This document shows positions 10,035-64,000 of a stretch of 64,000 nt of DNA, one piece after another. How positions within the stretch are numbered: position 1 is the first letter of the stretch; each line of letters starts with the position of its first letter. Under the pieces are notes generated by a model, which saw only the letters and a program-made list of their open reading frames with translations, ran no database searches and had not been told where the DNA came from. Source of the stretch: Streptomyces sp. SCSIO 30461 (lineage in GTDB: Bacteria > Actinomycetota > Actinomycetes > Streptomycetales > Streptomycetaceae); the NCBI RefSeq assembly GCF_037023745.1, contig NZ_CP146101.1:6774001-6838000 (forward strand), written 5' to 3'. Made by a program: the position numbers and the translations under genes.

Positions 10035-10082
10035 CGTCGCCGTCCCTGTGTTGCCCGAGCGCCCCCTATCCAGGAGCTTCCC

Positions 10083-10148: not shown

Positions 10149-10180
10149 CCCGCCACCCCCTTTGGAAACCGCCCCCCCCT

Positions 10181-12522: not shown

Positions 12523-13039
12523 CACACCCACCGCGCACGACTTCGCCCATGCGCTCGCCGACCAGATTCCCGGCGCCGCTCCCCGCGACGTCACCATGCA
12601 TTTCGGCGTTAGACGCCAGGCCGCGGCCCGGCACCGCTACCGCTCCCGCGGCGGCCCCGTGACGGTCTACGCCCAAGCCCTGCACGCCCAGCTCTACGGA
12701 CTGCCCACAGGCGACGAGCCCCTTCCCACCGCTCTCGACGCGCTACTGCAAGCCGCGCACGGCACCAGCAGTCCCGAACAGCAGACAGCGGTCCTGCAGC
12801 AGCTCACCGAACAACTGCGCAACGCCGCCGAGATCCTCGAATGGGCCCGCGACCACGCCCACCGGCGCGGGCTGCCCACCCCCACCTGGCAATGGCTGCG
12901 TGACGCCACGGACACCGCCCGCGACCTCGCCGACGGCCTCGACACGGTACGCCCCGCCTTCACCACACCCCGCACCCCCGCCACGACCCCGGCCCCGCCG
13001 GCACCCGCCGCGGCCCGCACCCCCACACCCCGCCGCTGA
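12506..13039 (+). CDS. Hypothetical protein, 177 aa
   Basis: ATG 12506 touches AGGAG (12501-12505), an impossibly short spacer. An ACG six nt later (12512, in frame) would be at the normal distance, so the true start is unclear. The product has an N-terminal half that could be a helix-turn-helix-like fold (MHFGVRRQAAARHRYRSRGG), then helices through residue 150 (EQLRNAAEILEWARDHAHRR) and a Thr/Pro/Ala tail. It overlaps the previous gene by 17 nt. Function unknown. Confidence 0.65.
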   Translation: MPTSTDTPTAHDFAHALADQIPGAAPRDVTMHFGVRRQAAARHRYRSRGGPVTVYAQALHAQLYGLPTGDEPLPTALDALLQAAHGTSSPEQQTAVLQQLTEQLRNAAEILEWARDHAHRRGLPTPTWQWLRDATDTARDLADGLDTVRPAFTTPRTPATTPAPPAPAAARTPTPRR

Positions 13040-13073
13040 CCGACCCACCCACCGGCAGCGCCCCGCCCACCGC

Positions 13074-13087
13074 AAGGACCCCCGATT
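13074..13087 (+). promoter_or_regulatory. Shine-Dalgarno AAGGA with ATT start codon
   Basis: AAGGA at 13074-13078, spacer 6 nt, then ATT 13085. The frame is closed upstream by TGA at 13037, and no ATG, GTG, TTG or CTG occurs in this frame before ATG 13145. The conserved PP-loop is encoded before 13145, so translation must begin at a non-standard codon, and ATT 13085 is ideally placed. Confidence 0.65.
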
Positions 13088-15270: not shown

Positions 15271-16373
15271 TGCCCCATCCCCCGAGCCCGTACGACGATC
15301 CGGTCGACCTGCCGCCGCAGCCGCCGGTGCACTACGCCGAGCAGGCCCTCCTCGGCGCACTCCTCCTCGAACCCCACCGATCCGGCGACATTGCTGTGCA
15401 CGCCGACCAGTTCGGCAATCACGCCCACGGCGCGCTGTTCGCGGCCATCCAGGCAGCACCGGCGTGCGGTGCGGAGACGCGCCGGTCCGATGTGGTCTGG
15501 CTGAACGCGGTGCTGGAAGCCGCCCGGCCCGAAGCCCCCGGGCTGAGCGTGTCCTACCTCCACGCCCTGGTCCAGGTCTGTCCCTCCCCTGGGCACGCCG
15601 CCGTTTACGCGCAGGTCATCCAGGCCGAGCACGCCCGCCGCCGCCTGCGTGAAGCCGCCCTGCGCCTCGCGCAGACCGCGCGGGACACCTCCCTGCCCCA
15701 CCCGGTGCCCACCACCCTCGCCGAAGCCGACGCCCTCGCCGGCGTCGTGGACGACATCGCCGCCGCCTTCGCTCACGGCTCCGGGCCCCTGCCCCGCACC
15801 CCCACACCGCCCGCACCCGTCCGCGACGCCGAAGAAGCGGCCGAGGAAGAACGCCTGCTCCTCGCCACCGCCACCGCCAACCCGGCCGACATCGCCCAGA
15901 TGCGGTGGCTGACCGGCGACGACTTCACCCACTCCCTGCATGCCGGACTGTGGCACTGCCTGACCGCCCTTGCCGGACGCCGTGCGCCCGTCGACCCCAT
16001 CACCGTCGTCTGGGAAGCCCAGCAACGCGGTGTCCTGCACGACCACGATCCGCGAGACCTGCTCGGCTTCCTCGCCGCACCGGCCGAATCCGCACGGCAC
16101 TTGGGTGGGCGCATCCTGCACCGCCGCATCCTGGACAGCGCCCACCGCACCGGCCGGCATATCGCCGCACTCACCGACGACCCGGCCACCACGCCCCCGC
16201 AGCTCGTGCTCGGCAGCCGACGCGCCCTCGCGGACCTGGCCGCTGTACGAACCCGCTGGCACCTCGCCACCGCACCACCGTCGGTCAGAGCCACACCCGG
16301 CCCGGCGACCGCCGCGCCCCGGGCCGGCCCGCCGCCCACCACAGCCCCGCCCCCCAGCCGCATCGCCCACTAA
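15270..16373 (+). CDS. DnaB-N-terminal-like protein lacking the helicase domain
   Basis: ATG 15270 shares its A with the methyltransferase stop. The 367-residue product carries a DnaB-helicase N-terminal-like unit (YAEQALLGALLLEPHRSGDI, then SYLHALVQVCPSPGHAAVYA, AEHARRRLREAALRL) and a second similar unit from about residue 185 (RLLLATATANPADIAQMRWL, then GLWHCLTALAGRRAPVDPIT, ILHRRILDSAHRTGRHI). No Walker A or B motif follows, so it is not a helicase itself. It could bind primase or replicative helicase, or regulate element replication. The tail is Pro/Ala-rich. Confidence 0.75.
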   Translation: MPHPPSPYDDPVDLPPQPPVHYAEQALLGALLLEPHRSGDIAVHADQFGNHAHGALFAAIQAAPACGAETRRSDVVWLNAVLEAARPEAPGLSVSYLHALVQVCPSPGHAAVYAQVIQAEHARRRLREAALRLAQTARDTSLPHPVPTTLAEADALAGVVDDIAAAFAHGSGPLPRTPTPPAPVRDAEEAAEEERLLLATATANPADIAQMRWLTGDDFTHSLHAGLWHCLTALAGRRAPVDPITVVWEAQQRGVLHDHDPRDLLGFLAAPAESARHLGGRILHRRILDSAHRTGRHIAALTDDPATTPPQLVLGSRRALADLAAVRTRWHLATAPPSVRATPGPATAAPRAGPPPTTAPPPSRIAH

Positions 16374-50338: not shown

Positions 50339-50560
50339 TCAGCAACCCGGTCGGTGACGTGCCGTCAACTGACGGCGAAGACGGCGCTCCGCCGGGGTCA
50401 GCGGGATGTCCGGGCGCACCCGTTCCGGGTGGCCGGGCGGCGGCGGGCGGAGCCCGGGGGGCTCCGTACCCCGGCCCGGGGCGGGCACCCCGATCCATAT
50501 CCACCCGGCGGTCACGAGGGCGTCGTAGCAGCCGTACACCACCCGCCTCAGCAGCGTCAT
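50339..50560 (-). CDS. Small DUF6059-like protein
   Basis: A 73-residue protein whose ATG 50560 overlaps the acyltransferase stop (ATGA), so it is the last gene of the PKS operon. It has LLRRVVYGCYDALVTAGWIW, then a Pro-rich PPGHPERVRPDIPLTPAERR, which I recall as the DUF6059 pattern (small proteins often found at the end of Streptomyces gene clusters). The hydrophobic first half could be a short membrane segment. Function unknown. Confidence 0.7.
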   Translation of the reverse strand: MTLLRRVVYGCYDALVTAGWIWIGVPAPGRGTEPPGLRPPPPGHPERVRPDIPLTPAERRLRRQLTARHRPGC

Positions 50561-52344
50561 GAGCGCAGCGCGGCGGCCGGCTCCCAGGGTGCGCCGGTCC
50601 CGGTCACCGTCGCCACGGGCTCCTCGTCGCTCCAGGTCCACAACCGGGACAACGCGTCGAGGTCGAGATCGTGGCCCTCGGTCCAGATGCGCGCGGCGGT
50701 CGCCAGCACCGACTGGCGGTCGGCCTCGGGCGTGCCCCGGCGCGCGGGCAGCAGCGCGGCGGCCGCGCTCGCACCGAGGCGCACGGCGCGGTGCCTGCGG
50801 GCGAAGGCGGTCAGGGTCTGCCGCGGACCGGCCTCGATCAGCAGCATGTCGTCCACCGCGAGCAGTTCTTCGAGCGCGGCCTTGAAGTACACCGTGTCGG
50901 TGATCTGGCGCGCCCAGAAGCGGGGGCTGACGGCGTCCTCGGGGTGCATCAGACCACCGGTGTAGCCGGAGTACAGCGGCAGCCGGGGCTCGCGCAGGGG
51001 GATGCCGCGGTAGACGGCCTCCACGGCGTCGGATGCCGGAGCCATCGCAGGTGAGTGGAAGGGACTGGTCGCGGGGACGTTGACGACGGTGAAGCCATCG
51101 GACCTGAGGTCGGCCGCGACATCGGCCAGCGGGGCGGCGGAACCCGCGAGCATCACCTGCTGCGCGGCGTTGACCGCGGCGATGGCCACGTCCCCCTCCA
51201 CGTAGGGATGCAGTTGCTCCTCGCTCGCGGCGACGGCCAGCATTCCGCCTTCCGGTATCCGTACCGCCTCTCGCACCCGGGCCATCATCATCGCCACGGC
51301 GTCGGGCAGCGCCATCACTCCGGCGAGGGTGGCGGCGACCAGTTCACCGGCGCTGTGCCCGAGCAGGGCTGCGGGGCGCACACCCCAGCTGAGGATGAGC
51401 CGGCCGAGCGCGTAGTCGACGGCGAACAGCAGCGGCTGTGCGCGGCGCACATCGTCGATGTCGATGCGCGGCGATCCGGAGTTGAGCCAGTCCTCGCGGA
51501 TCCGGTGGCCCTCCTCGCCCATGTGGGAGAGTGCGGCGTCCACGGCGGCGGTGAACACGGGCTCGCGCAGGTAGAGCCCTGCGGCCATGCCCGCGTGCTG
51601 GGAGCCCTGGCCTGGGAAAAGCAGGGCGACGGGCCGCGGACGGGCGGCGGTCACGGGCTTGGCCTTGTGCACGGTGGCGGCGGCCAGCGCCGACACCGAG
51701 ACGGCGGCGCCGCGCACCGGTCCGGGCGTGGTGCCGCAGGGCACCGCAGTGGGCAGGGCCGGGTAGGCCTCACTGTGCAGTCCGCTGAGCAGGGGCAGCA
51801 GTTCGCTGCGGACCCGGCTCTCGTCGGCGGCGTCCTGACCGGACCAGAGCAGCAGCCGATGCTGCTCGGGGTCGGTGGCGCGGCGTCCGTGGTGGAGCGG
51901 GCGCAGCGCGGGCATCTCGTCGTCGGTGCCGCCGCTCGCGTCGAGCACGCCGAGGACGCGGTCCGCCTCCGCGATGGCCTCGGCGGCCCGCTTGACCGCG
52001 TAGACGGTGATGGTGTGCGGGTCCAACTCGCCGAATCCGGCGACCATGGCGAAGTCCGCGATGCCGTCGCGCAGTTCCCGGTCGGCGAGGCGCAGGGCCC
52101 GGCCGGGGGTGGACACGGTACGCACCGTGAAGCCCTCGTGTTCGCTGCCGAGTCCGGGGTCCGGGTCGATGGCGCCGACGTACACGATGGTGCGTACGGG
52201 CAGTTCCTCGGGCGGCTTGCCGAAGGCCCGCAGCACCGCCGACACACCGGCGGCCGATGCCACGATCCGCGCTCGGGGCGGCTGCGTGGAGCCGGGGCTG
52301 ATGACCAGCCTCCGGACGACCGCGCTGTATGAGGTGAGCGACAT
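50557..52344 (-). CDS. Discrete acyltransferase with KS-like N-terminal remnant
   Basis: A 595-residue protein. Residues about 237-530 form an acyltransferase domain with LLFPGQGSQ (242-249), active-site LLGHSAGE (S331) and SPFHSPAM, which would load malonyl-type units onto the ACP. The His-Phe-His-like segment is closest to malonyl-specific enzymes; the inference is weak. Residues 1-235 resemble parts of a ketosynthase and its linker (RDGIADFAMVAGFG, then LLLWSGQDAADESRV) but lack a catalytic Cys. ATG 52344 follows AGGAGGGAAG. Type II PKS clusters usually borrow the AT of fatty-acid synthesis, so a dedicated one is notable. Confidence 0.85.
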   Translation of the reverse strand: MSLTSYSAVVRRLVISPGSTQPPRARIVASAAGVSAVLRAFGKPPEELPVRTIVYVGAIDPDPGLGSEHEGFTVRTVSTPGRALRLADRELRDGIADFAMVAGFGELDPHTITVYAVKRAAEAIAEADRVLGVLDASGGTDDEMPALRPLHHGRRATDPEQHRLLLWSGQDAADESRVRSELLPLLSGLHSEAYPALPTAVPCGTTPGPVRGAAVSVSALAAATVHKAKPVTAARPRPVALLFPGQGSQHAGMAAGLYLREPVFTAAVDAALSHMGEEGHRIREDWLNSGSPRIDIDDVRRAQPLLFAVDYALGRLILSWGVRPAALLGHSAGELVAATLAGVMALPDAVAMMMARVREAVRIPEGGMLAVAASEEQLHPYVEGDVAIAAVNAAQQVMLAGSAAPLADVAADLRSDGFTVVNVPATSPFHSPAMAPASDAVEAVYRGIPLREPRLPLYSGYTGGLMHPEDAVSPRFWARQITDTVYFKAALEELLAVDDMLLIEAGPRQTLTAFARRHRAVRLGASAAAALLPARRGTPEADRQSVLATAARIWTEGHDLDLDALSRLWTWSDEEPVATVTGTGAPWEPAAALRS

Positions 52345-52502
52345 CTTCCCTCCTGGTGGGCCGCGGCCTCCGGCCGCCCTGGCGTGCGCGTTCGTGTGCT
52401 TGTGGTCGTGCGGAGTTGCGTGTGGGGGCGGGGTGTGGGGGGGCGGCCGTCCCGCCCCGCGGGGGATTCGGGCGGGACGGCCGCGTTCATTCGAGCCCCT
52501 GG

Positions 52503-52787
52503 TCAGGCGGCGGTCTGGTCCGCGTTGATGAGCGCGAGCAGGGCCCTCGGGGTCTCCGCGTCCACCACGGCGTCGTCCGGGATCTCGATGCCGTACTCGC
52601 GCTGGATCTGGCCGATCACCTGGAGCAGGGCGAGCGAGTCGTAACCGAGGTCCATGAAGGGGGTGTCCATGACGTCGCCGTCCAGGTCGACACCCTCCTC
52701 CTCGCCCGCGCTCTCACGCAACATGCGGGTCAGGTCGGCCAGGGTGACGGTGATCGTCGTGGTGGTGGTGGTGATACCGGTGCTCAT
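52503..52787 (-). CDS. Acyl carrier protein
   Basis: A 94-residue ACP with the phosphopantetheine site DLGYDSLALLQ (S51), acidic helix II and typical length. It starts at ATG 52787 behind GAGAGGACG; the N-terminus has an odd run of Thr (ITTTTTTITVTL). It carries the growing chain for the KS-alpha/CLF pair encoded upstream and is loaded by the downstream acyltransferase. The phosphopantetheinyl transferase encoded at the right edge of the window could activate it. Confidence 0.9.
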   Translation of the reverse strand: MSTGITTTTTTITVTLADLTRMLRESAGEEEGVDLDGDVMDTPFMDLGYDSLALLQVIGQIQREYGIEIPDDAVVDAETPRALLALINADQTAA

Positions 52788-52891
52788 GATGGGACGTCCT
52801 CTCGTTCGGGCTGGCTGGTCTGGTGGTGAGGTAGGTGACGCTGTGGAGCTTGTGAGGGGTGGGGAGTGGGGGATCGCAGCTCGTACCGGCT

Positions 52892-54106
52892 CTAGGCGCG
52901 GCGCACGACCAGCGCCGCGTTGAAGCCTCCGTGGCCCCTGGCGACGACCAGCGCGGCGCGCAGATCGGCCTCGCGCGCCTCGGTGACCAGGTCGATGCCG
53001 AGACCGGGCGCCGGCGCCGCCACATGGACGGTCGGCGGGACCACCCCGTCGCGCAGGGCGAGCAGGGCGGTGGCCGCGTCCAGGGCGGCGCCGCCGGCCA
53101 GCAGTCGCCCGGTCATCGTCTTGGGCGCGGTGACGGGGACGGCGTTCGGCCCGAACACGGCGGCGAGCGCCTCGGCCTCCGCCCGGTCGTGCTCGGGCAC
53201 ACCCGCCGCGTCGGCGAAGACCACGTCGATGTCGGCGCTGGTGCACCCGGCGTCGGCCAAGGCTTGCTCGATGGCCCGGCGCAGTCCGGACGGGCGACCG
53301 GATCCGGGAGCCGGATCGAGGGTGGCCGCGTAGCCGGCGATCTCCCCGTAGACATGGGTGGCACCCCGGTCGCGTGCCGCCTCCGCGTCTTCGAGGAGCA
53401 GGATCGCGCCCCCCTCACCCGGTACGTAGCCGCTCGCTTCGGACGAGAACGGCAGATAGGCGCGCGCCGGGTCGTCGACCGTCGACATCAGCCCGGAGGC
53501 GATCTGCGGCACCCAGCCCCAGGGGCAGACGGCCGCGTCGACGCCACCGGAGATCACGGCCGGGAAACCCTTGCGGATGTGGCGGCGTGCCTGCCCGATG
53601 GAGTCGATGCCACCCGCCTGCTCGGTGAGCAGCACCCCGCTGGGGCCGCGCAGCTTGTGCCGGATGGAGATCTGGCCGGTGTTGACGGCGTAGAACCAGG
53701 CGAAGGACTGGTACGCGCTGACGTACTCCTTGCCCTTGCTCCACAGGTTCTCCAGCTCCCGCTGGCCGAACTCGACAGCGCCTCCCGAGGCCGAGGTGAC
53801 GACGCCGATGCCGTACTCGGGCATCGCGGTGGTGTCGATCCCGGCGTCGGAGAGTGCCCAGTCCGCCGCGGTCAGCGCGAGCCGCGTCATATGGTCGGTC
53901 TGCGGCATCAGCCGGCTGGGGATGTGCTCCTCGGCGTTGTAGTCGGAGACCTCGCCCGCGACACGCGAGGGATACCCCGAGGCGTCGAAGCGTGTCACCT
54001 CGCCGAGGCCGGACTGTCCGGCCACCGTGGCCTTCCAGTACTCCTCGGTGCCCAGCCCGTTGGGCGCGGTCACGCCCAGGCCGGTCACCACGGTGGTCCT
54101 GCTCAT
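52892..54106 (-). CDS. Type II PKS chain-length factor (KS-beta)
   Basis: A 404-residue ketosynthase homologue in which the active-site Cys is replaced by Gln: [15 protein letters not shown] (Q163). That is the mark of the chain-length factor partner of KS-alpha. ATG 54106 overlaps the KS-alpha stop by 4 nt, ensuring equal synthesis of the dimer. Other KS landmarks remain ([27 protein letters not shown]). CLFs set the number of extension steps. I cannot predict chain length from reading. Confidence 0.92.
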
Positions 54107-55368
54107 GCGGCGCTCCTCTCCGGACGGGCCAGCACCATGGCACTCTGGAACCCGCCGAAGCCGCTGCCGACGCTGAGGACCACGTCGGTCTGCTTCTCAC
54201 GGGCGGTCAGCGGGATGTAGTCGAGGTCGAGTTCGGGGTCGGGCTCGTGCAGATTGGCGGTGGGCGGCAGCACTCCGTGCTCCATCGCCAGCGCGCAGGC
54301 GGCGATCTCCAGGGAGCCGATGGCACCCAGCGAGTGCCCGATCATCGACTTGATGGAGCTGACGGGGGTGCGGTACGCGTGGTCCCCCAGGCTGCGCTTG
54401 AACGCGCCGGTCTCGTGGCGGTCGTTCATCTTGGTGCCGGAGCCGTGGGCGTTGATGTAGTCGATGGTGTCGGGTGCGAGCCGGGCCTCGGCGAGCGCGA
54501 CGTCGATGGCCTCGGCCATCTCGCGCCCGTCCGGCTTGAGACCGGTCATGTGGTACGCGTTGCAACGGGAGGCGAATCCCGCGATCTCCGCGTAGATATG
54601 GGCGCCGCGCCGCTTGGCACTCTCCAACTCCTCCAGGACGAGGATCGCCGCGCCCTCGCCGAGGACGAGACCGCTGCGGGTCCTGTCGAAGGGCCGGCAG
54701 GCGCTCTCCGGGGTGTCGTTGCGGGGGGTGGTGGCGTGGATGGCGTCGAAGCAGGCCGAGGTGATCGGTGAGATGGGCGCCTCGGTGGCGCCCGCGATCA
54801 TCACATCGGCAGTGCCCTCTCGGATGAGCTCCACGGCGTGTCCGAGGGAGTCGAGTCCCGAGGTGCAGCCGGTGGAGACCACCGCCGCGGGTCCTTCGGC
54901 TCCGGCCGCCTGGCCCACCTCGGCGGCCATCGAGCTGGGCACGAAGTGCCGGTACAGCTCGGGTACCGCGTAGGTGTGGTCGACGTTCCACAGGCGCCCG
55001 CCGTCGCTGACGACGGCGTACTCCCGCTCCAGGCTGGTGGTGCAGCCGACCGCGCTGCCCAGCGAGGTGCCGATCCGCCCCGGGTCGAGCGTGCCGACAT
55101 CGAGTCCGCTGTCGGCGACGGCCTCACGGGTGGAGACCACCGCGAACTGCGCGGCCCGGTCGAGACGCCGGGCCTCCTGCTGGGACAGACCCGCCGCCAG
55201 CGGGTCGAAATCGCACTCGGCGGCGACCTGGGAGCGGAACGGGGACGGGTCGTAGAAGGTGATCCTGCGGGTGGCGGTGCGTCCCGCCGTGAGCAGGTCC
55301 CAGTACTCCTTGACACCGACCCCGCCCGGGGCCACGACGCCCAGGCCTGTGATGGCGACTCTGCGCAT
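54103..55368 (-). CDS. Type II PKS ketosynthase alpha
   Basis: A 421-residue condensing enzyme with intact catalytic triad: Cys168 in [12 protein letters not shown], His308 in [12 protein letters not shown] and His345 in [12 protein letters not shown]. The TGCTSGLDS form is that of KS-alpha subunits rather than FabF. It forms a heterodimer with the CLF to extend ACP-bound chains. ATG 55368 has AGGTAG a few bases upstream. The gene heads the KS-CLF-ACP-AT-DUF6059 operon. No ketoreductase, cyclase or aromatase gene is in the window, so product class is open. Confidence 0.93.
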
Positions 55369-55650
55369 GGTCTACCTGGCCTTCGACGGGGCCGGGTGCG
55401 CCGTCGCGCACCAGCCGGCTGGAACTGTGGGGGTCACTGTCGATCCCTTCGTCCGTGACGCTTTCGCTTGCGTGACGCTCCTGCACTCGATGCGGCGGCC
55501 GGGGCGGTTCAGGGTCAGGGCCTCCCCACCCCGGCCGGCCGGGCACCTGTCCGGCGACTCGCTCGTGGCTTGTCGCCGGGCTCGGTCCAGCCATGGAACG
55601 GGTGTGCTCTCGACCGTGGCTCGCGCGCCCGTGGACCGTGGAAAAGCGCA
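55369..55650 (-). promoter_or_regulatory. Promoter region of the PKS operon
   Basis: 282 bp with no gene. On the plus strand it contains three copies of CCGTGG(A/C): 55614-55620, 55629-55635 and 55636-55642. The outer two are 22 bp apart, two helical turns, which recalls the direct heptamer repeats bound by SARP activators. This assignment is speculative. Confidence 0.35.
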
Positions 55651-57240
55651 CTACGTCGGCACATTTCCATGCTTGCGGGCAGGCACTTCGGCTTGCTTCG
55701 CGCGCAGCATGGCGAGGGACCTGACCAGTACCCGCCGGGTGTCCCCGGGGTCGATGACGTCGTCCACGAGACCACGTTCGGCCGCGTAGTACGGATGCAT
55801 CAGCTCGGACTTGTACTCCTTGATGCGCTGCGCCCGTAGCGCATCGGGATCCTCGGCTGCGGCTATCTCGCGCCGGAAGATGACGTTGGCGGCGCCCTCG
55901 GCTCCCATCACCGCGATCTCGTTGGTGGGCCAGGCGAAGGACAGGTCGGCGCCGATGGAGCGGGAGTCCATCACGATGTACGCGCCGCCGTAGGCCTTGC
56001 GCAGCACCAGGGAGATACGGGGCACGGTGGCGTTGCAGTACGCGTACAGCAGCTTGGCGCCGTGCCGGATGATGCCGCCGTGCTCCTGGTCGACACCGGG
56101 CAGGAAACCGGGCACGTCGACCAGGGTGACGAGCGGGATGTTGAACGAGTCGCAGAAGGACACGAAGCGGGCGGCCTTCTCCGAGGCATGGATGTCGAGT
56201 ACCCCAGCGAGGGAGGCGGGCTGGTTGGCGACGATGCCGACCGGGTGCCCGTCGAGCCGGGCGAGCGCGCACACCACGTTCTGCGCCCAGCTCTCGTGCA
56301 CTTCGAGGAACTCGCCGTCGTCCACGACCTCCTCGATGACCTTGCGGATGTCGTACGAGCGTCCCGGCTCGGCCGGCACCAGCTCGGTGAGCGCGTCGGT
56401 GCGCCGGTCGGCCGGGTCGTCGCAGGCCGCGGCGGGTGGCATCTCGCGGTTGTTCCCGGGCAGCAGGGCGAGAAGGAAGCGCACGTCCTCCAGGCAGGCG
56501 GCCTCGTCGTCATGGGCGAAGTGGCAGACCCCGGAGGTGGTGGCGTGCACATCGGCCCCGCCGAGTCCGTTGTGGGTGATCTGCTCGCCCGTGACGGCCT
56601 GGACCACGTCGGGTCCGGTGATGAACATCTGCGCGGTCTCGCGGACCATGAAGACGAAGTCGGTCAGGGCCGGGGAATAGGCCGCTCCGCCCGCGCAGGG
56701 GCCGAGCATCACACTGATCTGGGGGATGACGCCGGAGGCCGCGACATTGCGGCGGAAGATCCCACCGTAGCCCGCGAGGGCGGTGACGCCCTCCTGGATG
56801 CGGGCGCCCGCGCCGTCGTTGAGGCTGACCAGGGGCGCTCCCGCGGCCTCGGCGAGGTCCATGACCTTGTGAACCTTCTCGGCGTGCGCCTCACCCAGCG
56901 CACCGGCGAACACCCGGAAGTCGTGGGCGTAGGCGAAGACGGTGCGGCCGTGCACCAGTCCCCAGCCGGTGATCACGCCGTCGCCGTGCGGCTTGCGGTG
57001 CTCCAGGCCGAAGCCGCTGGCCCGGTGCCGGCGCAGCGGCTCGATCTCCGTGAACGTGCCCTCGTCAAAGAGCAGTTCGAGGCGTTCATGGGCGGTGAGT
57101 TTGTTCTTCTCGTGCTGCCGTCGGGTGGCGGCCGGGTCGGGGCCGCGGCTCACCTCTTCCTTGAGACGGCGCAGTTCGTCGGTGGAGCGGCGCAGGTCGG
57201 GTGCCGCCTGGATGACCGTGAGCTCGTCAAGGATCGTCAT
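55651..57240 (-). CDS. Acyl-CoA carboxylase beta subunit (carboxyltransferase)
   Basis: A 529-residue biotin-dependent carboxyltransferase of the PccB/AccD type, which would carboxylate acetyl- or propionyl-CoA to malonyl- or methylmalonyl-CoA. Typical segments are HEKNKLTAHERLELLFDEGT, GVITGWGLVHGRTVFAYAHD, SLNDGAGARIQEGVTALAGY, VMLGPCAGGAAYSPALTDF and KAYGGAYIVMDSRSIGAD. The biotin carrier/carboxylase alpha subunit is not nearby and must come from elsewhere. Its placement between the SARP gene and the PKS operon suggests a dedicated supply of extender units. ATG 57240 has no strong Shine-Dalgarno. Confidence 0.92.
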   Translation of the reverse strand: MTILDELTVIQAAPDLRRSTDELRRLKEEVSRGPDPAATRRQHEKNKLTAHERLELLFDEGTFTEIEPLRRHRASGFGLEHRKPHGDGVITGWGLVHGRTVFAYAHDFRVFAGALGEAHAEKVHKVMDLAEAAGAPLVSLNDGAGARIQEGVTALAGYGGIFRRNVAASGVIPQISVMLGPCAGGAAYSPALTDFVFMVRETAQMFITGPDVVQAVTGEQITHNGLGGADVHATTSGVCHFAHDDEAACLEDVRFLLALLPGNNREMPPAAACDDPADRRTDALTELVPAEPGRSYDIRKVIEEVVDDGEFLEVHESWAQNVVCALARLDGHPVGIVANQPASLAGVLDIHASEKAARFVSFCDSFNIPLVTLVDVPGFLPGVDQEHGGIIRHGAKLLYAYCNATVPRISLVLRKAYGGAYIVMDSRSIGADLSFAWPTNEIAVMGAEGAANVIFRREIAAAEDPDALRAQRIKEYKSELMHPYYAAERGLVDDVIDPGDTRRVLVRSLAMLRAKQAEVPARKHGNVPT

Positions 57241-57316
57241 TGGCCGAACGTAGGAACGGCTCCTCGAAGCTCGGTGGAGCAGCCGCTCCCCGTGTCCCCG
57301 GCACGTCCGGCTCCGA

Positions 57317-58108
57317 TCAGGTGGCCGGCACGTTCAGATCCAGCTCCGGGTCGGAGGACAGGATGGCCTGGTGCAGCCGCTGGAGCCGCGGCGACGGTTC
57401 GAGTCCCAGCTCGTCTATCAGGGTGCCGCGCAGCCGCTGGTACGACTCCAGGGCCCGCCAGGCGCTGCCCGCGCGGTGCAGCGCGGTCATCAGCTGGGCG
57501 CAGAAGTTCTCGTGCATCGGGTGCTTGGCGACCAGCACACGCAGCTCGGGCACGATCTCGGTGTGCCGTCCGAGGCGCAGATCGGCGTCGATACGCCGCT
57601 CCAGCGCCGCCATCCGGTCCTCTTCGAGGCCCAGCACCTCAAGCTCCAGCACACTGCCGACCCGGACATCGACCAGGGCCGGCCCGCGCCACATCTTGAG
57701 CGCGGTGCCGAGCAGTTCCGAGGCGGCGTGGTAGTCGCCCGCCTCGTGCGCGTCCCGTCCCGATGAGGCCAGCCGGCTGAACTCCTCGGCGTCCACCCTG
57801 CCGGGCTGGACCTGGAGCAGATAGCCGCCGTGCTGGGTGACCAGCACGTCCTTGGCCTGCCGGTGCGGATCCCCGTCCAGTGCCGCGGTGAGCTTGCGGC
57901 GCAGCTGGAGGATGTACGTCTGGAGGGTGGTCGCCGCGCTACGCGGGATCTCCTCGCCCCAGATCTCCTCCATCAGGGTCGGTACGGTGACCACCCGGTC
58001 GGCCTGGAGGGCGAGGAGCGCGAGGATCTGGCGCGGCTTGCCGGCGGTGGGGACCACGGAGATGCCGTGCTCGACGGCGGCGAGCGGTCCCAGAACATTG
58101 ATCTCCAT
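57317..58108 (-). CDS. SARP-family transcriptional activator
   Basis: A 263-residue regulator. The N-terminal winged-helix DNA-binding domain (MEINVLGPLAAVEHGISVVP, then RQILALLALQADRVVTVPTL and TLQTYILQLRRKL) is followed by the bacterial transcriptional activator domain (DAEEFSRLASSGRDAHEAGD, LWRG-type segment KMWRGPALVDV, LMTALHRAGSAWRALESYQR, LIDELGLEPSPRLQRLHQAI). SARPs of this size activate antibiotic clusters by binding direct repeats near the -35 region. ATG 58108 follows AGGGGAA. It is divergent from the precursor gene and probably controls both arms of the cluster. Confidence 0.93.
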   Translation of the reverse strand: MEINVLGPLAAVEHGISVVPTAGKPRQILALLALQADRVVTVPTLMEEIWGEEIPRSAATTLQTYILQLRRKLTAALDGDPHRQAKDVLVTQHGGYLLQVQPGRVDAEEFSRLASSGRDAHEAGDYHAASELLGTALKMWRGPALVDVRVGSVLELEVLGLEEDRMAALERRIDADLRLGRHTEIVPELRVLVAKHPMHENFCAQLMTALHRAGSAWRALESYQRLRGTLIDELGLEPSPRLQRLHQAILSSDPELDLNVPAT

Positions 58109-58353
58109 CGTTCGTTCCCCTTTGCCTCGATTCCCCGTCTCACGCTCCGGTGCTCGGGGCGGAGCACTGCTGAGGGTCGAGGTTCGCATCAAAGGCGGTC
58201 GCGCCCCCAGTGAGCGGCTCACGAAGGCCGACATGAAAATGTCATACCGCGATGGTGAACCGGGCACTGGGCCTCCATGAGATCCACACCTCACAATCCT
58301 GAGCCACAGGACGTCGACGAAAACTCGTACGACTGACTCGGGAGGGGAACCCC
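58109..58353. promoter_or_regulatory. Divergent control region of the SARP and precursor/YcaO genes
   Basis: 245 bp between divergent starts. Three small inverted repeats are seen: GTGCTC/GAGCAC (58150-58155 and 58162-58167), the palindrome GTGAGCGGCTCAC (58210-58222) and GACAT-GAAA-ATGTC (58230-58243). They may be operators for the SARP or the response regulator encoded nearby. No gene is present. Confidence 0.5.
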
Positions 58354-58644
58354 ATGATCGGCTCGACCACGCTCGTACCCGGCAAGTCCCCGTCTACGCA
58401 GACCGACGACCACCGTCTGGCCCTGCTCACCGCCCGGACGGGTCTGGAGCCCGACCTGGCCCTGCGCTACACCATCGACCCGGTGTCCGTCCTCGCCGAG
58501 TTCGGCCTGGTGGCGGCGGAGCCGGTCTACCTGGACGGACACGCGGAACGCCCGCTGGACGTACTGCTGGAGAGCTTCGACGACACGGCCGCGGCGGTCA
58601 CCGCCGGGTGCAACTGGACCACACTGTCCGCGGCGGGCTCATGA
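58354..58644 (+). CDS. Candidate RiPP precursor peptide, 96 aa
   Basis: ATG 58354 follows an excellent GGGAGGGGAA. Residues 20-60 (LALLTARTGLEPDLALRYTI, then DPVSVLAEFGLVAAEPVYL) resemble the nitrile-hydratase-like or Nif11-like leader style, though I cannot confirm the family. The C-terminal 20 or so residues after LLESFDD carry Thr78, Thr83, Cys86, Thr89, Thr90, Ser92 and Ser96, side chains that a cyclodehydratase can turn into azolines. The stop overlaps the YcaO start (ATGA), so the two are made together. It could instead be a small accessory protein; a leader-core boundary is not certain. Confidence 0.6.
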   Translation: MIGSTTLVPGKSPSTQTDDHRLALLTARTGLEPDLALRYTIDPVSVLAEFGLVAAEPVYLDGHAERPLDVLLESFDDTAAAVTAGCNWTTLSAAGS

Positions 58645-60905
58645 CGGCCGTGGACCCGGCTCACGCCGGATTTCCGGTGGGGTTCAAGCACCACCTGCGT
58701 GTGGAGATGGTGGCCGGGGAAGCGGTGTATCTGCTGTCCGAACGCGGTACCAAGGTGCTGCGGGGACAGCAGGTCGTCGCCCTGGCTCCGCTCCTCGACG
58801 GAACACGCACCCTCCCCGCGGTGATCGCCGAGGCGACTCCGGTCGTGCCGGCCGAGGAGGTGGGCCGGGTGATCGCCGCCCTCGCTCGCGCCGACCTCGT
58901 CGGCTACCGCGACCCGGGGGCGGACTCCGCCGCCGCGGCGTACTGGGAACTCGCCGGTATCGGCGGCCCCGACGTCGCGGCGACGGTCGCCTCAACCCCG
59001 GTGCAGGTGGTGCCGCTGGGGCGGACGGACGGCGCGGCGGCCAGGGCGGAGTGCCTGACCGCCGGGCTCTCCCTGGCGGAGACGGTGGGGGCGGCCGCCT
59101 TCGGCCTGGTGCTGTGCGATGACTATCTCGACCCCGCGCTGGCCGAGGTGGACGCCCGGTACCGGGCGGCTGGACGGCCGTGGCTGCTGGCCCGCCCGTG
59201 CGGTCCTGAGGTGTGGGTCGGGCCGGTGTTCGGCGCGGACGGCGGGCCGTGCTGGTCCTGTCTGGCGCACCGGCTGCGCGGCCATCGTTCGTCCGAGGCT
59301 CCGGTCCGGCACGCCCTGGGCCTGCCGGGCCCGGTGCCGCTGCCGGAGGCCTCGCTGACTGCGGTGCGGATGATGGGGCTGCACACGACAGTGCTGGAGG
59401 CGCTGAAGTGGGCGGCCGGGATGCGCTACGAGGGCCAGGGTGCGGTGTGCGCGCTGGACACACGCACCCTGCGCACCCGCCACCATCAGGTGGCCAAGCG
59501 CCCCCAGTGCTCCGAGTGCGGAGACCCGGGGCTGGTCGCCGCGCGAGTCCGAGGCCCCGTGGTGCCGATGTCACGGCCCAAGGCGAAGGAGTCCGGCAGC
59601 AACCACCGGGCGCTTTCGGCTGCCGAGGTGCTCGCGCGCTACAGGCATCTGGTCGATCCGATCACCGGCGTCGTCTCCTCACTCCAGCCGTCGCCGGGAA
59701 CTCCGGAGGGCCTCAACCGCTGGATGTCCGGGCGGAATCTGGCCTGGCGCGGCCGTTCCCCCGAGGGGCTGCGCAGCCACAGCGGCGGCAAGGGCGTCAC
59801 ATCGGAGGAGGCGGAGGCCGGAGCGCTCTGCGAAGCGGTCGAGCGCTACTGCGGCACCCGGCAGGGGGACGAGCCGGTGGTACGGGACTCGTACACGGGT
59901 CTCGGTGGCGACGCCATGCACCCGAACGCCGTCCAACTGTTCGCCGACCGGCAGTTCCGCGACCGCGACCGCTGGAATCCGAGCCACTCGCTGATGCAGA
60001 CGGTGCCGCCGCGCTTCGACGAGCTGGCGCCGTGCGAGTGGACTCCCGTGTGGTCGCTCACGGAAGGCCGGCACCGGCTGCTGCCGACATCGATGCTGTA
60101 CTACGGCCCCGGACCCGATGGTGTCCAGGAGCCGCCCTGGGCGGACTCCAACGGCAACGCGGCGGGTTCCAGTCCGGAGGACGCCATCGTCCAGGGCTTC
60201 CTGGAACTGGTGGAGCGCGACGCGGTGGCGCTGTGGTGGTACAACCGCCTGCGGCGTCCCGCGGTCGACCTCGACGCCTTCGACGAGCCCTGGCTCACCC
60301 GGGCCCGTGAGGCGTACGCGCGGACGGGCCGCTCACTGTGGGTACTTGATCTGACGGCGGACTTCGGCATCCCCGTGATGGGGGCGGTGTCCCGGACCGA
60401 CGGACACCGGCAGGAGATCTGCTTCGGCTTCGGGGCCCATTTCGATCCCCGCCTGGCTCTGCGCCGTGCGGTCACCGAAATGTGCCAGCTGCTCCCGCCA
60501 CCGGTCGCCGGCGTGGGCGAACCGTTGCGCCGTAGACCCGGATTGCCGCAGGAACTGCTGGAATGGTGGTCCACGGCGACCGTCGAAAATCAGCCGTATG
60601 TGCTCCCCGATCCCGGAGAGCCCTCCAACGGCCCGTCGGACTACGTCTACACGCCGCGGGCGGACCTGCGGGCGGATGTCGAAGCGGCGGAATCCGCGGT
60701 TCGGGCCCGAGGCATGGAGCTGCTGGTACTGGACCAGACCAGGCCCGACGTGGGGCTGCCCGTGGTCAAGGTCGTGGTGCCCGGGCTACGCCACTTCTGG
60801 GCACGGTTCGCACCCGGTCGACTCTTCGACGTACCGGTGGAGATGGGGTGGTGTGATCGAGCCACACCGTACGAAGAGTTGAACCCGGTTCCCCTCTTCG
60901 TCTGA
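58641..60905 (+). CDS. Fused TOMM cyclodehydratase (leader-binding + YcaO)
   Basis: A 754-residue protein with two parts. The N-terminal half looks like the E1/ThiF-like leader-peptide-binding component, with a zinc site formed by CWSC (C204, C207) and CSEC (C290, C293). The C-terminal half (from about residue 350) is a YcaO ATP-dependent cyclodehydratase with SGGKGVTSEEAEAGALCEAV and ending in NPVPLFV, close to the Pro-rich tail needed by such enzymes. It would convert Ser, Thr or Cys to azolines. ATG 58641 overlaps the precursor stop. No flavin dehydrogenase or peptidase is in the window. Confidence 0.88.
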   Translation: MTAVDPAHAGFPVGFKHHLRVEMVAGEAVYLLSERGTKVLRGQQVVALAPLLDGTRTLPAVIAEATPVVPAEEVGRVIAALARADLVGYRDPGADSAAAAYWELAGIGGPDVAATVASTPVQVVPLGRTDGAAARAECLTAGLSLAETVGAAAFGLVLCDDYLDPALAEVDARYRAAGRPWLLARPCGPEVWVGPVFGADGGPCWSCLAHRLRGHRSSEAPVRHALGLPGPVPLPEASLTAVRMMGLHTTVLEALKWAAGMRYEGQGAVCALDTRTLRTRHHQVAKRPQCSECGDPGLVAARVRGPVVPMSRPKAKESGSNHRALSAAEVLARYRHLVDPITGVVSSLQPSPGTPEGLNRWMSGRNLAWRGRSPEGLRSHSGGKGVTSEEAEAGALCEAVERYCGTRQGDEPVVRDSYTGLGGDAMHPNAVQLFADRQFRDRDRWNPSHSLMQTVPPRFDELAPCEWTPVWSLTEGRHRLLPTSMLYYGPGPDGVQEPPWADSNGNAAGSSPEDAIVQGFLELVERDAVALWWYNRLRRPAVDLDAFDEPWLTRAREAYARTGRSLWVLDLTADFGIPVMGAVSRTDGHRQEICFGFGAHFDPRLALRRAVTEMCQLLPPPVAGVGEPLRRRPGLPQELLEWWSTATVENQPYVLPDPGEPSNGPSDYVYTPRADLRADVEAAESAVRARGMELLVLDQTRPDVGLPVVKVVVPGLRHFWARFAPGRLFDVPVEMGWCDRATPYEELNPVPLFV

Positions 60906-60992
60906 AACCAGGGCTGTTGTCGCCTGGCGCGGGCACCATCCCACTTTCGTCATTAGCATGCGGTTCTGCCACAGTCCCTCAAGGAGGCTGCG

Positions 60993-62294
60993 ATGCCGGA
61001 CCGCTCCCGAAGTGCCGTCCCGGATTCAACCAACGACGAACCACCCGGCAGAGACATTCGGGACCGGGGGCAGACCTCCGGACGCCTCCGCGTGGACTCC
61101 GCCGAGCGCAGAAACCGAGCGGAACTTCCTGCCCCGCGTATGGCACGGGCGATCACCACCGCCGCCCTGCTGTGCTACGCGACGGTCACCATCCTGAACG
61201 TGCTGCGGTGGGGCGATCCGACCACGTCCCGCCTCACCGTCAGCATGACGCTGATCGTGCTCATCTTCACCGTGCAGCTCGCGATCTCCGCCCCCGCCGC
61301 CCGCTCCTGGAGCATCCGGCGCAAGGTGACCGTGCTTCTCCTTCAGGCGCTGCTGACCTATCTGCCGCTGTTCTGGTACGGGACCTCATGGGGAAGCATG
61401 GAGGGACCGCTGGCCGCCACCGTGCTGCTGGCTCTGCCTTCTCGGATCGCCTGGCCGGCATTCGCCCTGGTGGTGGTCAGCATTCCGGTCTACGCGGCGG
61501 TCGAGGGGGAGCCTCTCCCACAGGTCGGGTACTACGTCATAGCCGGGATCTTCACCGGTCTGGTGATCTACGGCCTCAGCCGGCTGACCGACCTGGTGCA
61601 CGAAGTACACGCCCAGCGCGCCGAGATGGCCAGAATGGCCGTCGTCCAGGAACGCCTCCGCTTCGCCCGCGACCTCCACGACCTCCTCGGCTACAGCCTC
61701 TCCGCCATCGCCCTCAAAGGAGAACTGATACACCGGCTCATCAACACCCGCCCCGAAGACGCCCGCGAGGAAACCGCCGACCTCCTCCGCGTCGCCCGCC
61801 AAGCACTCGCCGACGTACGCCTCGTCTCCAGCGGCTACCGCGACATGTCCCTACGCGACGAAGCGGAATCCGCAGCCGCGATCCTCACCGCAGCCGAAGT
61901 GGACACACAAGTCGACATCGCCTGCGGACGACTCCACCCGGTCGTCGACACCGTCCTCGCGACCGCGCTCCGTGAAGGCGTCACCAACATACTGCGCCAC
62001 AGCAAGGTACAAAGGTGCAGCATCTCCGCCACCGCAGACGGAGAAACCGTGCTCCTCAGCATCGTCAACGACGGAGCAGAGCACCACAAGGCCCCCTCAC
62101 CGCAACCGCGCCCGGCGAGCAGCGGGCTGGACAACCTACGGCAGCGCTTCACGGAGATCGGCGGACGGCTCACCGCCGAACTACGCGAAGACGGCCGCTT
62201 CCACCTCGAAGCCCACGCACCCACCCGGCCGCGGACCGGACACAACCCGGCTGACGCCACCGAGTCACGCACCGGCGAGAAGGTGGCCGCCTGA
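60993..62294 (+). CDS. DesK-like sensor histidine kinase
   Basis: A 433-residue NarL-type kinase. A hydrophilic head of 50 residues is followed by about five to six membrane segments (55-195), a HisKA_3 dimerisation domain with RFARDLHDLLGYSLSAIALK (H229) and a C-terminal ATPase with REGVTNILRHSKV (N box), VNDGAE and SSGLDNLRQRF (G boxes). It senses a membrane or external cue. ATG 60993 follows AAGGAGG. It is adjacent to a nearly identical truncated copy and the likely partner response regulator. Confidence 0.92.
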   Translation: MPDRSRSAVPDSTNDEPPGRDIRDRGQTSGRLRVDSAERRNRAELPAPRMARAITTAALLCYATVTILNVLRWGDPTTSRLTVSMTLIVLIFTVQLAISAPAARSWSIRRKVTVLLLQALLTYLPLFWYGTSWGSMEGPLAATVLLALPSRIAWPAFALVVVSIPVYAAVEGEPLPQVGYYVIAGIFTGLVIYGLSRLTDLVHEVHAQRAEMARMAVVQERLRFARDLHDLLGYSLSAIALKGELIHRLINTRPEDAREETADLLRVARQALADVRLVSSGYRDMSLRDEAESAAAILTAAEVDTQVDIACGRLHPVVDTVLATALREGVTNILRHSKVQRCSISATADGETVLLSIVNDGAEHHKAPSPQPRPASSGLDNLRQRFTEIGGRLTAELREDGRFHLEAHAPTRPRTGHNPADATESRTGEKVAA

Positions 62295-62339
62295 AGAGTT
62301 TCCAACCGAGGACGTCGTACCGACCTCCCGGCCCCGCGC

Positions 62340-62945
62340 ATGGCACGGGCGATCACCGTCGTCGCGCTGCCGTGCTTCGCGACAGTGGCCATCCTGAACG
62401 CACTGAAGTGGGGCGACCCGGACAGATCGCGTCTCACCGGCTTCGCCCGCCAAGCACCCGCCGACGTACGCCTCGTCTCCAGCGGCTACCGCGACATGTC
62501 CCCACGCGGCGAAGCGGAATCCGCAGCCGCGATCCTCACCGCAGCCGAAGTGGACACACAAGTCGACATCGCCTGCGGACGACTCCACCCGGTCGTCGAC
62601 ACCGTCCTCGCGACCGCGCTCCGTGAGGGTGTCACCAACGCACTGCGACACAGTAAGGTACAAAGGTGCAGCAACTCCGCCACCGTTGACGACGGAACGG
62701 TCCTGCTCGGCATCGTCAACGACGGAGCACGGCACCACAAAGCCTCGACACGTGAACGGCCGGCGAGCAGCGGGCTGGACAACCTCCGGCAGCGCCTCAC
62801 GGAGATCGGCGGACGGCTCACCGCCGAACTGCGCGAAGACGGCCGCTTCCACCTTGAGGCGTACGTACCCACCCGACCACGGACCGGAGACGACGAAACG
62901 CCACAGGACACCGGATCGCGCGCCGGCGAGAGGACAGCCGCTTGA
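62340..62945 (+). pseudogene. Internally deleted copy of the histidine kinase
   Basis: A 201-residue frame that matches residues 50-82 of the upstream kinase (MARAITVVALPCFATVAILN) and then jumps to residue about 268 to the end. It lacks most membrane segments and the H229 phosphorylation site but keeps the ATPase. Nucleotide identity from about 62442 to 62735 to the parent is very high, so the duplication is recent. No Shine-Dalgarno precedes ATG 62340. The frame is intact, so a functional ATPase-only protein cannot be excluded. Confidence 0.7.
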
Positions 62946-62977
62946 GAACGACGACCTGATTCGCCCGGGGGGGACTG

Positions 62978-63592
62978 ATGCTGTGCGTGAGGATTCTTCT
63001 CGCCGAGGACATGCACATGATTCGAGGCGCACTGGTCGCACTACTGCAACTCGAACCCGATCTGGAAGTCGTGGCGTCCGTCGACCGGGGGGACACCATC
63101 GTGAAGGCCGCGCTGGAGTCCAGACCGGACGTGGCGATCATCGACATCGACCTGCCGGGCATCGACGGCCTCACCGCCGCCGCCGAACTGCATGAGCAAC
63201 TACCCGGCTGCCGGACCCTGATCCTGACCAGCCTCGGCCGTCCGGGCACGTTGCGCCGTGCGCTCACCGCCCATGTCAGCGGGTTCCTGCTGAAGGACTC
63301 GCCGCCGGACCAGCTCGCCGAGGCCGTGCGCGCGGTCGCGGCGGGACGGCGGGTGGTGGACGCACAACTCGCCCTCAGCGCCTGGGACTCACCGGAGAAC
63401 CCGCTGTCGCCGAGGGAGCTGGAGGTGCTAAGGCTCGCCGCCCAGGGTGCGGACGCCGCCGAGATCGCCGGGTGCCTGTTCCTGTCCAAGGGCACCGTCC
63501 GCAACTACCTCACGGCCATCGTCACCAAGCTCGGCGCCCGCAACCGGATCGACGCGATCCGGATCGCCGAGGAGGCCGGCTGGATTCCCTGA
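62978..63592 (+). CDS. NarL/LuxR-family response regulator
   Basis: A 204-residue response regulator. The receiver has acidic pair LLAED (E10, D11), phospho-acceptor D56 in VAIIDIDLPG, LTSLG and K106 in GFLLKD. The output domain is a LuxR helix-turn-helix: NPLSPRELEVLRLAAQGADA, then FLSKGTVRNYLTAIVTKLGA. ATG 62978 follows a run of G that acts as the ribosome-binding site. It is the likely partner of the DesK-like kinase and may control the cluster or a membrane response. Its last 165 nt overlap the end of the convergent gene. Confidence 0.92.
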   Translation: MLCVRILLAEDMHMIRGALVALLQLEPDLEVVASVDRGDTIVKAALESRPDVAIIDIDLPGIDGLTAAAELHEQLPGCRTLILTSLGRPGTLRRALTAHVSGFLLKDSPPDQLAEAVRAVAAGRRVVDAQLALSAWDSPENPLSPRELEVLRLAAQGADAAEIAGCLFLSKGTVRNYLTAIVTKLGARNRIDAIRIAEEAGWIP

Positions 63593-64000
63593 CCCCGTGT
63601 CCGCGGGCCGCTCCCCGTCCGGCCCGGCCAGTCCCAGCAGGGTGTCGAACAGCCCCTCGTCCAGCATCGTGGCCACCGAAAGGTCAGCCATGTCCCCGAA
63701 GCCCGAGTCATGGACGGCGGCACTCACCACATAGCGCTCCCCGACCGGGAACGTGCCGAAACTCCATTCGTCACCTGCCGCCTGGGTTCCGTCCGGCCGC
63801 ACCAACCGGGTCGCGGACCCGTTCAGGGCGAAGCCGAATTCGGTGAACCGGAAGCGCAATCCCTGCCCGAGTGCCTTGCTGTACGCCTCCTTGAGCGTCC
63901 ACAGCCGCACCATGGTGTCGTTGCGTGCCTCCTCACCCCCTTCGTCCAGCCGCTCCTTCTCGTACGGGGTGCACGCCTGGAGTTCGGATCCGGTGTGGGC
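63428..64000 (-). CDS. 4'-phosphopantetheinyl transferase, 5' end outside window
   Basis: The visible 190 residues carry the Sfp-type core RLWTLKEAYSKALGQGL (the W-x-x-K-E-A-x-x-K motif) followed by FRFTEFGFALNG and a WSFGTF/VVSAAV strand pair. Such enzymes attach the phosphopantetheine arm to carrier proteins, so it could activate the ACP at 52503-52787. The gene begins beyond 64000. The stop at 63428 lies 165 nt inside the convergent response regulator gene, so the last 55 residues (Gly/Asp-rich) are antisense to it and look non-domain. A frameshift near 63600 is possible. Confidence 0.85.
   Translation of the reverse strand, partial: AHTGSELQACTPYEKERLDEGGEEARNDTMVRLWTLKEAYSKALGQGLRFRFTEFGFALNGSATRLVRPDGTQAAGDEWSFGTFPVGERYVVSAAVHDSGFGDMADLSVATMLDEGLFDTLLGLAGPDGERPADTGSGNPAGLLGDPDRVDPVAGAELGDDGREVVADGALGQEQAPGDLGGVRTLGGEP

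Follow-up and report, generated by a model that had tools for sequence, protein, structure and literature searches.

In the agr system of staphylococci divergence affects the signal peptide, its processing protein and the kinase sensor jointly and spares the regulator, and in the comQXPA system of Bacillus the polymorphism ends inside comP. Here, we describe a cassette that lies in a stretch of 64,000 nucleotides, the window, which corresponds to positions 6774001-6838000 of the 8.05-Mb single-contig genome of Streptomyces sp. SCSIO 30461. The cassette consists of genes for a precursor peptide, a cyclodehydratase of the YcaO family, a sensor histidine kinase and a response regulator and adjoins a type II polyketide synthase (PKS) cluster with a Streptomyces antibiotic regulatory protein (SARP). 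As in agr, peptide, enzyme and sensor co-diverge beside a conserved regulator; in contrast to agr, neither an AgrB-type protease nor a thiolactone is involved, and the regulator is of the NarL instead of the LytTR type. Modifying enzyme, precursor, kinase and regulator form a unit as they do in comQXPA. The modifying enzyme of comQXPA is an isoprenyl transferase, whereas the one found here is a YcaO cyclodehydratase, and many of our loci carry a SARP gene within actinomycete biosynthetic clusters. Pherotypes of comQXPA are described as coupled to a striking polymorphism of the system (PMC4408185; PMC4008528), in which precursor, modifying enzyme and sensor differ as a block beside a conserved regulator (PMC4408185), just as in two of our loci, L018 and L019. 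Because its modifying enzyme is a YcaO protein and neither ComQ nor AgrB, the cassette is not a member of either system; it would work like them, with a different enzyme, chemistry and host.

The best-known Streptomyces hormones are small lactones and furans. The SRB pathway combines a small lactone with a cytoplasmic TetR-type receptor, whereas a peptide and a membrane kinase would take these places here. For the SRB butenolides with srrA and srrY, control of an antibiotic cluster by a SARP that itself lies below a diffusible signal has been described (PMC7296167), and the signal proposed here would likewise act above a cluster-controlling SARP. Goadsporin is reported to elicit secondary metabolism and morphogenesis in actinomycetes and is encoded with six modification genes (PMC5303826). 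As with goadsporin and other linear azol(in)e-containing peptides (LAPs) or thiazole/oxazole-modified microcins (TOMMs), azoline-forming enzymes act on a precursor made of leader and core; in contrast to goadsporin, a single modification enzyme is combined with a cognate kinase-regulator pair. A further relative is the nitrile-hydratase-like precursor family (NHLP; described in PMC2887384): the leader in the window matches the putative TOMM-peptide model TIGR04351 below its cut-off, but many of our loci have a short leader only, which carries an L-x-I-E-x-L-D box. Among the matches listed in the literature, judged on titles and the beginnings of abstracts and with subscription papers and preprints outside the scope, no description of a unit of YcaO with SARP, PKS and two-component genes was found. 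A paper on the TOMM landscape (PMC4603692) does not use the terms polyketide, histidine kinase, LuxR, signal or SARP in its main text, and a mention of SagD in PMC11354674 turned out to be a reference title.

We consider it probable that the cassette is a signalling device and not one half of a biosynthetic product, that is, that a pheromone belonging to the azoline-bearing ribosomally synthesized and post-translationally modified peptides (RiPPs) is sensed by the kinase and turns on the SARP and, through it, the PKS. What the sequences themselves show is the gene content, the conservation of the module, the hypervariability of the cores, a block-wise replacement that stops near the kinase core, an operator-like block with a single site in the genome and variants that have arisen by natural loss; we infer the formation of azolines, the export, the binding to the receptor, the identity of the operator-binding protein and the direction of regulation. 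The precursor, a leader with a short core containing Cys, Ser or Thr, would be converted into an azoline peptide by the fused leader-binding/YcaO enzyme and would be trimmed and exported by host functions outside the cassette. Once outside the cell, the peptide would bind to the membrane part of the neighbouring histidine kinase, and this kinase would phosphorylate the NarL-type regulator encoded next to it. Binding of the latter to a 66-bp operator-like block would raise expression of the precursor-YcaO operon, resulting in autoinduction, and of the SARP, which would turn on the type II PKS cluster. Co-variation of core, YcaO and sensor would lead to strain-specific pherotypes.

With fair confidence, we extend this proposal to a widespread actinobacterial quorum-sensing family, in which YcaO-derived azoline peptides would serve as strain-specific pheromones, core, cyclodehydratase and sensor would be exchanged as a block, each pherotype would control a SARP-driven antibiotic cluster and strains with the receptor only, G149 for instance, would eavesdrop. 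Under laboratory conditions many antibiotic clusters of Streptomyces remain silent. If the proposal is correct, antibiotic-producing Streptomyces time the production of their compounds through strain-specific modified peptides, and there is a directly testable route to awaken the clusters beside the cassette, the enzyme family being present in 109 of 392 sampled Streptomyces genomes. Moreover, pherotype biology with its cheating, eavesdropping and incompatible signalling groups would reach antibiotic production, and the numerous orphan pairs of TOMM genes would acquire a function other than antibiosis.

Genes that accompany the YcaO enzyme

A scan of GTDB genomes yielded 399 relatives of the YcaO protein, the best 80 of which were analysed, so that all tallies cover the nearer part of the family; together with the window they make up 81 loci. 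A later set of loci overlaps the earlier one (for example L131=L014, L133=L016, L128=L061, L137=L031, L142=L032) and is no independent sample. Kinase and regulator are both encoded within 6.5 kb of the YcaO gene in 74 of the 80 related loci, each of them taken alone in 76, and a SARP gene in 49. When loci with 1.5-kb flanks were compared, a kinase was present in 31 of 34 rows of the family as opposed to 0 of 29 rows of other YcaO proteins; each set contains two duplicate-gene rows, and control row L170 resembles a truncated family relative (52% identity). The regulators that adjoin the YcaO genes are 63-90% identical to that of the window (76 loci), compared with 49% for its best paralogue in the window genome, and therefore look like one orthologous group. 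According to clustering on rough gene calls, YcaO, kinase, regulator and SARP are the widely recurring neighbours, and the remaining clustered families reach 33 of the 81 loci at most. Precursor, modifying enzyme, kinase and regulator were found to travel as one conserved unit. No such kinase was found in the 14-20 kb surrounding the other four YcaO genes of the window genome, where one weak regulator match (29%) and one weak SARP match (34%) were noted. Two YcaO genes elsewhere in this genome lie about 9 kb apart (G000:C1:4130100-4142081) and, at 26-31% identity, fall outside the family.

For the PKS, a sample of 392 Streptomyces genomes was surveyed with cut-offs of at least 82% identity to the ketosynthase (KS) of the window and E <= 1e-150 for the YcaO family. 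The ketosynthase was detected in 20 other genomes (82-95% identity), 21 in all, and the next gap reaches down to 78%. A family YcaO gene is located within 5 kb of it in 16 of these genomes, at about 16 kb in G321 and on another contig in G146, G304 and G390; G149 has none. The linkage of the two arms that had been noticed earlier in the window is therefore conserved, and the YcaO gene was rejected as a chance neighbour of the PKS. On the other hand, 89 of the 109 genomes with a family YcaO lack a PKS of the window type. Other, less similar type II ketosynthase genes occur near family members, within 6 kb in G048, G077 and G083 for example, and simple sequence patterns pointed to motifs of nonribosomal peptide synthetases in seven and of type I ketosynthases in two of the 80 loci.

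The earlier note had suggested that both arms act on a single product, with an azoline peptide joined to, or made alongside, a polyketide or fatty acyl chain. The presence of the YcaO family in 20 of the 21 genomes with the ketosynthase, in 16 of them within 5 kb, would agree with a hybrid in which peptide and polyketide are joined, and the phosphopantetheinyl transferase (PPTase), a fused acyl carrier protein (ACP)-acyltransferase and an AMP-ligase of the cluster could in principle load unusual groups. A hybrid would however require that the peptide is always present and that its core is conserved with the PKS. Instead, the core peptides are unrelated in two strains whose PKS proteins are 95.6% identical and across strains differ about as much as shuffled cores, G149 possesses the PKS without precursor or YcaO, and most genomes with the enzyme do without this PKS. 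Co-occurrence and core conservation led us to abandon the hybrid as the main interpretation, and we regard it as very improbable. The absence of the PKS from those 89 genomes, the constant kinase and regulator partners, the unrelated cores and G149 are better explained if the peptide is a switch signal and not a building block.

The same cassette also accompanies a second type of cluster (L045, L046, L047, L049, L052, L062 and L092). As named by eye, a SagB-like dehydrogenase is encoded in six of these seven loci and an AfsA-like protein likewise in six, and two signalling systems may share one locus there.

Co-variation of core peptide, enzyme and sensor

Nineteen loci share the PKS of the window (KS identity 88% or more; L083 was left out). 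Median pairwise identities among them are 0.915 for KS, 0.905 for ACP, 0.866 for the carboxyltransferase, 0.835 for the regulator, 0.832 for the chain length factor (CLF) and 0.785 for SARP, and fall to 0.628 for YcaO and 0.574 for the kinase. As the fatty acyl-AMP ligase (FAAL, 0.649) and the antibiotic-biosynthesis-monooxygenase protein (ABM, 0.559) are similarly divergent, fast divergence does not in itself set YcaO and kinase apart and was dropped as evidence in its own right.

The core peptides themselves differ far more. Addition of L024, L032, L035 and L089 to the 19 loci gave a set of 23 with this PKS or its close kin, for which core boundaries were drawn manually and from which 17 of the 40 loci with a precursor were left out. 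The median core distance in this set amounts to 0.867 compared with 0.878 for shuffled cores and 0.337 for the leaders. Examples are the cores of the window (GCNWTTLSAAGS), L014 (VTSSCNFTHGPIP repeated four times, with D replacing N in the final repeat), L016 (YGCYSGMTPLPG), L018 (FSIVFTKSDVPFPS) and L019 (CRCYVPLAREAG). As judged by eye among the cores seen, that of the window bears the closest resemblance to the cores of CNFTH type in L014 and L130.

Core distance correlates with the distances of YcaO (raw Mantel r 0.82), sensor (0.79), kinase core (0.68), SARP (0.63), regulator (0.62) and leader (0.55). With regulator, SARP and kinase core controlled, a partial correlation between sensor and core persists (0.58 for n=23 and 0.48 for the non-redundant set of n=18, from which five near-duplicates were removed; p 0.0005), and that between YcaO and core is 0.64 and 0.53, respectively. 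No correlation with the core is left for regulator and SARP after control for the kinase core.

The clearest case is provided by L018 (Streptomyces noursei B-3066) and L019 (S. lavendofoliae). Six PKS-cluster proteins taken together are 95.6% identical, the regulators 99%, the kinase cores 93% and the SARPs 95%, as against 67% for YcaO, 56% for the sensor and unrelated core peptides. In 300-nt windows along 22 kb, nucleotide identity is 86-98%, with a dip to 70% at 3901-4200 and values of 59-78% at 9601-12900. The latter block covers the precursor, the YcaO gene and the membrane sensor of the kinase; at a resolution of 100 nt the drop starts at about 9601-9700, just past the operator-like block, and ends around 12900, close to where the kinase core begins. 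Core, enzyme and sensor have been swapped jointly, and kinase core and regulator are conserved, although the link between sensor and core is not separable from that between enzyme and core. Among the loci compared, L018 has L019 as its nearest neighbour in kinase core, regulator and SARP, L017 in YcaO and L016 in the sensor, so that of the five parts compared only YcaO and sensor depart from the order of nearest neighbours. In other pairs, L017/L018 show the same dip, L029/L031 a shallower one and L021/L023, the cores of which are alike, none.

A putative operator and natural variants

The earlier note had pointed to a shared regulator region, and the divergent promoter of SARP and precursor indeed contains a conserved operator-like block of 66 bp, in which the inverted repeat CCCAGTG/CACTGGG encloses TCA/TGA elements. 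Its core pattern (58208-58245) is the sole site in the 8-Mb genome at up to three mismatches. A profile trained on the 19 same-PKS loci matches 45 of the 81 loci at E < 0.01 (E-values being nhmmer's own), 26 of them outside the training set. Twenty-three of these 26 matches lie 320-651 bp upstream of the YcaO gene, that of L083 is located at the SARP promoter and those of L068 and L074 are found elsewhere; L024, L032 and L035 are near kin of training loci, and nine of the 26 matches are weak (E 1.5e-3 to 9e-3). In L018 and L019 the block begins 482 bases before the YcaO match. Since matches also occur where no SARP was found beside YcaO (L037, L059, L060, L085 and L091, E 5e-3 to 5e-4), the regulator is a more likely binder than the SARP.

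Two natural variants have lost parts of the system. On contig C4 of G149 (L123 and L124) the PKS cluster, the SARP, an intact open reading frame for the kinase (404 aa), the regulator and the operator-like block are present; no precursor was seen and no family YcaO was found in this genome, in which a separate search gave two distant YcaO proteins at 30-32% identity. G149 is a putative receptor-only locus. In L083 (S. althioticus) the PPTase and SARP genes of the PKS cluster are only about 0.4 kb apart and the usual place of the cassette is empty, while a different cassette of the family is encoded about 8 kb away (the two regions concerned are 593-2649 and 10001-15941).

Points against a signalling function

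Several observations weigh against the proposed pheromone function. The operator profile has no match in 36 of the 81 loci, in six of the 80 related loci the kinase or the regulator is missing (both of them in L055 and L075), and no family of dedicated exporters or leader proteases recurs with the cassette in the 81 loci on rough gene calls; host functions may serve for export and processing. L083 carries a different family cassette (52% YcaO identity) about 8 kb from the empty place. Some PKS-cluster genes, ABM and FAAL, diverge as fast as YcaO, cores of loci that lie apart from this PKS seem to resemble one another more closely (many of the form ..ALFTICxxxxP), and a very sharp swap was seen in one pair of the four compared. 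Uncontrolled, every part correlates with core distance. Adding YcaO as a control reduces the correlation between sensor and core to 0.14 (p 0.03) and 0.11 (p 0.19) in the two sets, which means that matching of enzyme and core alone could drive it, the sensor being carried along by linkage. Core-sensor coevolution independent of YcaO is therefore not established; the data demonstrate joint variation of core, YcaO and sensor as a block, within which sensor-core and enzyme-core matching are not separated.

The weaker correlation under YcaO control would also agree with a kinase that senses something else, such as the polyketide or stress to the cell envelope, and with a YcaO peptide that is merely linked to it and moves along without a shared function; kinase sensor regions, moreover, often evolve fast in general. 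We consider this quite improbable, given that kinase and regulator are kept in 74 of 80 loci amid differing neighbourhoods, that no kinase occurs in any of the 29 control rows and that the block swapped between L018 and L019 ends near the border of sensor and kinase core.

The peptide precursor and its modification

The precursor reading frame behaves like a real gene because it is preceded by a likely ribosome-binding site (GGGAGGGG, before the ATG at 58354), its TGA overlaps the start codon of the YcaO gene (ATGA at 58641) and open reading frames with a conserved leader box are present in relatives. It scores 39.8 bits against TIGR04351, below the cut-off of 65 bits (E 2.3e-10). A profile built from it found homologues just upstream of YcaO at 40 of the 81 loci. 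The leader box L-[VLI]-I-E-x-L-D followed by a core occurs upstream of YcaO in 70 of the 81 loci, as opposed to 19 of 1363 places chosen at random from this DNA, and a stricter form in 58 loci compared with 5 of 1388 random places. Neither profile nor leader box revealed a precursor in seven of the 81 loci (L039, L048, L061, L063, L067, L077 and L082); look-alikes were noted by eye in L039, L063 and L128, which is on the same contig as L061. Cys, Ser or Thr is present in all 18 non-redundant cores and Cys in 13. Tandemly repeated cores with two to about seven copies are encoded just upstream of YcaO in L014 (four), L015 (four), L021, L023, L036 and L038 and recall the precursors of multi-copy pheromones or cyanobactins.

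The enzyme scores E 2.5e-99 with PF02624, 266 bits with TIGR03604 and 143 bits with the leader-binding domain model TIGR03882, the latter two above cut-off, and contains the CxxC pairs CWSC and CSEC and a C-terminal NPVPLFV. A YcaO protein with a leader-binding domain of the C/F type beside a precursor with leader and Cys/Ser/Thr core is characteristic of TOMMs and LAPs, with the proviso that the TIGR04351 match is below cut-off, and azoline rings in the peptide are predicted on the basis of the enzyme family. SagB-like dehydrogenases would oxidise azolines to azoles, as in azole antibiotics. A dehydrogenase of this kind, named by eye, is encoded beside YcaO in at least 12 of the 81 loci, with weaker matches in L083 and L127; none was seen among the genes of the window.

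The added dehydrogenase, the diversity of the cores and the tandem cores of L014, L015 and L036/L038 would also suit an azoline peptide that is itself an antibiotic and induces its own synthesis via the kinase-regulator pair, with the PKS co-regulated and chemically separate. Autoinducing RiPP antibiotics with their own kinase-regulator pair exist, nisin being the precedent. No immunity gene or transporter, however, recurs with the cassette in the 81 loci (rough gene calls), cores that differ about as much as shuffled ones among strains with the same cluster would be unusual for one antibiotic, and G149 has the sensor without the peptide genes. In our view an antibiotic role of this kind is unlikely and a pheromone accounts better for the cassette.

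Further genes of the window

Table 1. Features of the window, with domain assignments from Pfam and NCBIfam models.
Feature	Position	Strand	Evidence and remarks
Acyltransferase, 595 aa, extra N-terminal region	50557..52344	-	PF00698 (Acyl_transf_1) E 7.7e-42, residues 242-520
ACP	52503..52787	-	PF00550 E 2.9e-14; start ATG 52787 chosen from frame reading
CLF (KS-beta)	52892..54106	-	PF00109/PF02801; EQAGGID, Q at active-site position
Ketosynthase KS-alpha	54103..55368	-	PF00109/PF02801 (ketoacyl-synt); GCTSGLD, Cys active site
Acyl-CoA carboxylase carboxyltransferase subunit	55651..57240	-	PF01039 E 2.7e-194
SARP activator	57317..58108	-	PF03704 (BTAD) E 6.3e-47; listed open reading frame to 58294, conserved start ATG 58108 (alignment)
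Conserved operator-like block, 66 bp, divergent SARP/precursor promoter	58206..58271	.	CCCAGTGA..TCACGA..TGAAAATGTCAT..TGGTGA..CACTGGG
Precursor peptide	58354..58644	+	Leader; box VLLESFD 58561-58581; core DTAAAVTAGCNWTTLSAAGS 58582-58641
Cyclodehydratase, leader-binding/E1-like part fused to YcaO	58641..60905	+	TIGR03882, TIGR03604, PF02624
Sensor histidine kinase	60993..62294	+	PF07730 (HisKA_3); hydropathy: several N-terminal hydrophobic segments, ~residues 50-195
Second partial kinase copy, between kinase and regulator	62340..62945	+	Most of sensor and phospho-acceptor region missing
Response regulator, receiver and LuxR/NarL DNA-binding domain	62978..63592	+	PF00072, PF00196
PPTase	63428..64000, runs past window end	-	PF01648 E 5.1e-14

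All genes that the earlier note had listed (PKS genes, SARP, precursor, YcaO, two-component system and PPTase) are present, in the order given there (Table 1). Two boundaries had to be moved: the YcaO gene most likely starts at 58641, not 58608, and the SARP gene probably at 58108 rather than 58294. Kinase and regulator of the two-component system stand, to which the partial kinase copy has to be added; it is 88% identical at the nucleotide level to 61789-62294 and 80% to 61122-61239. In the close relative L130 there is no room for such a copy between kinase and regulator.

The extension of the sequence to the right that had been called for was carried out, and Pfam identified a fused ACP-acyltransferase, an acyl-CoA-dehydrogenase-like protein, an AMP-ligase, an antibiotic-biosynthesis-monooxygenase protein, a two-domain polyketide cyclase, a ketosynthase III, an HMGL/LeuA-dimer (citramalate/isopropylmalate-type) synthase, a CoA-transferase and a short-chain dehydrogenase/reductase. 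Farther right, to about 87 kb in window coordinates, own gene calls and naming by eye point to an epoxide-hydrolase-like protein and P450s. Because KS-alpha, CLF and ACP are joined by rightward genes that include the two-domain cyclase, the PKS arm qualifies as an aromatic type II PKS cluster, which carries a toolkit for starter units and extends beyond the window. The identity of its product was not found by this reading of the genes, and no further search for the compound was made. In L007, a LeuA/citramalate-type synthase (4567-6204) and a class III CoA-transferase (6223-7539) are encoded within a type II PKS cluster, which suggests an unusual starter unit.

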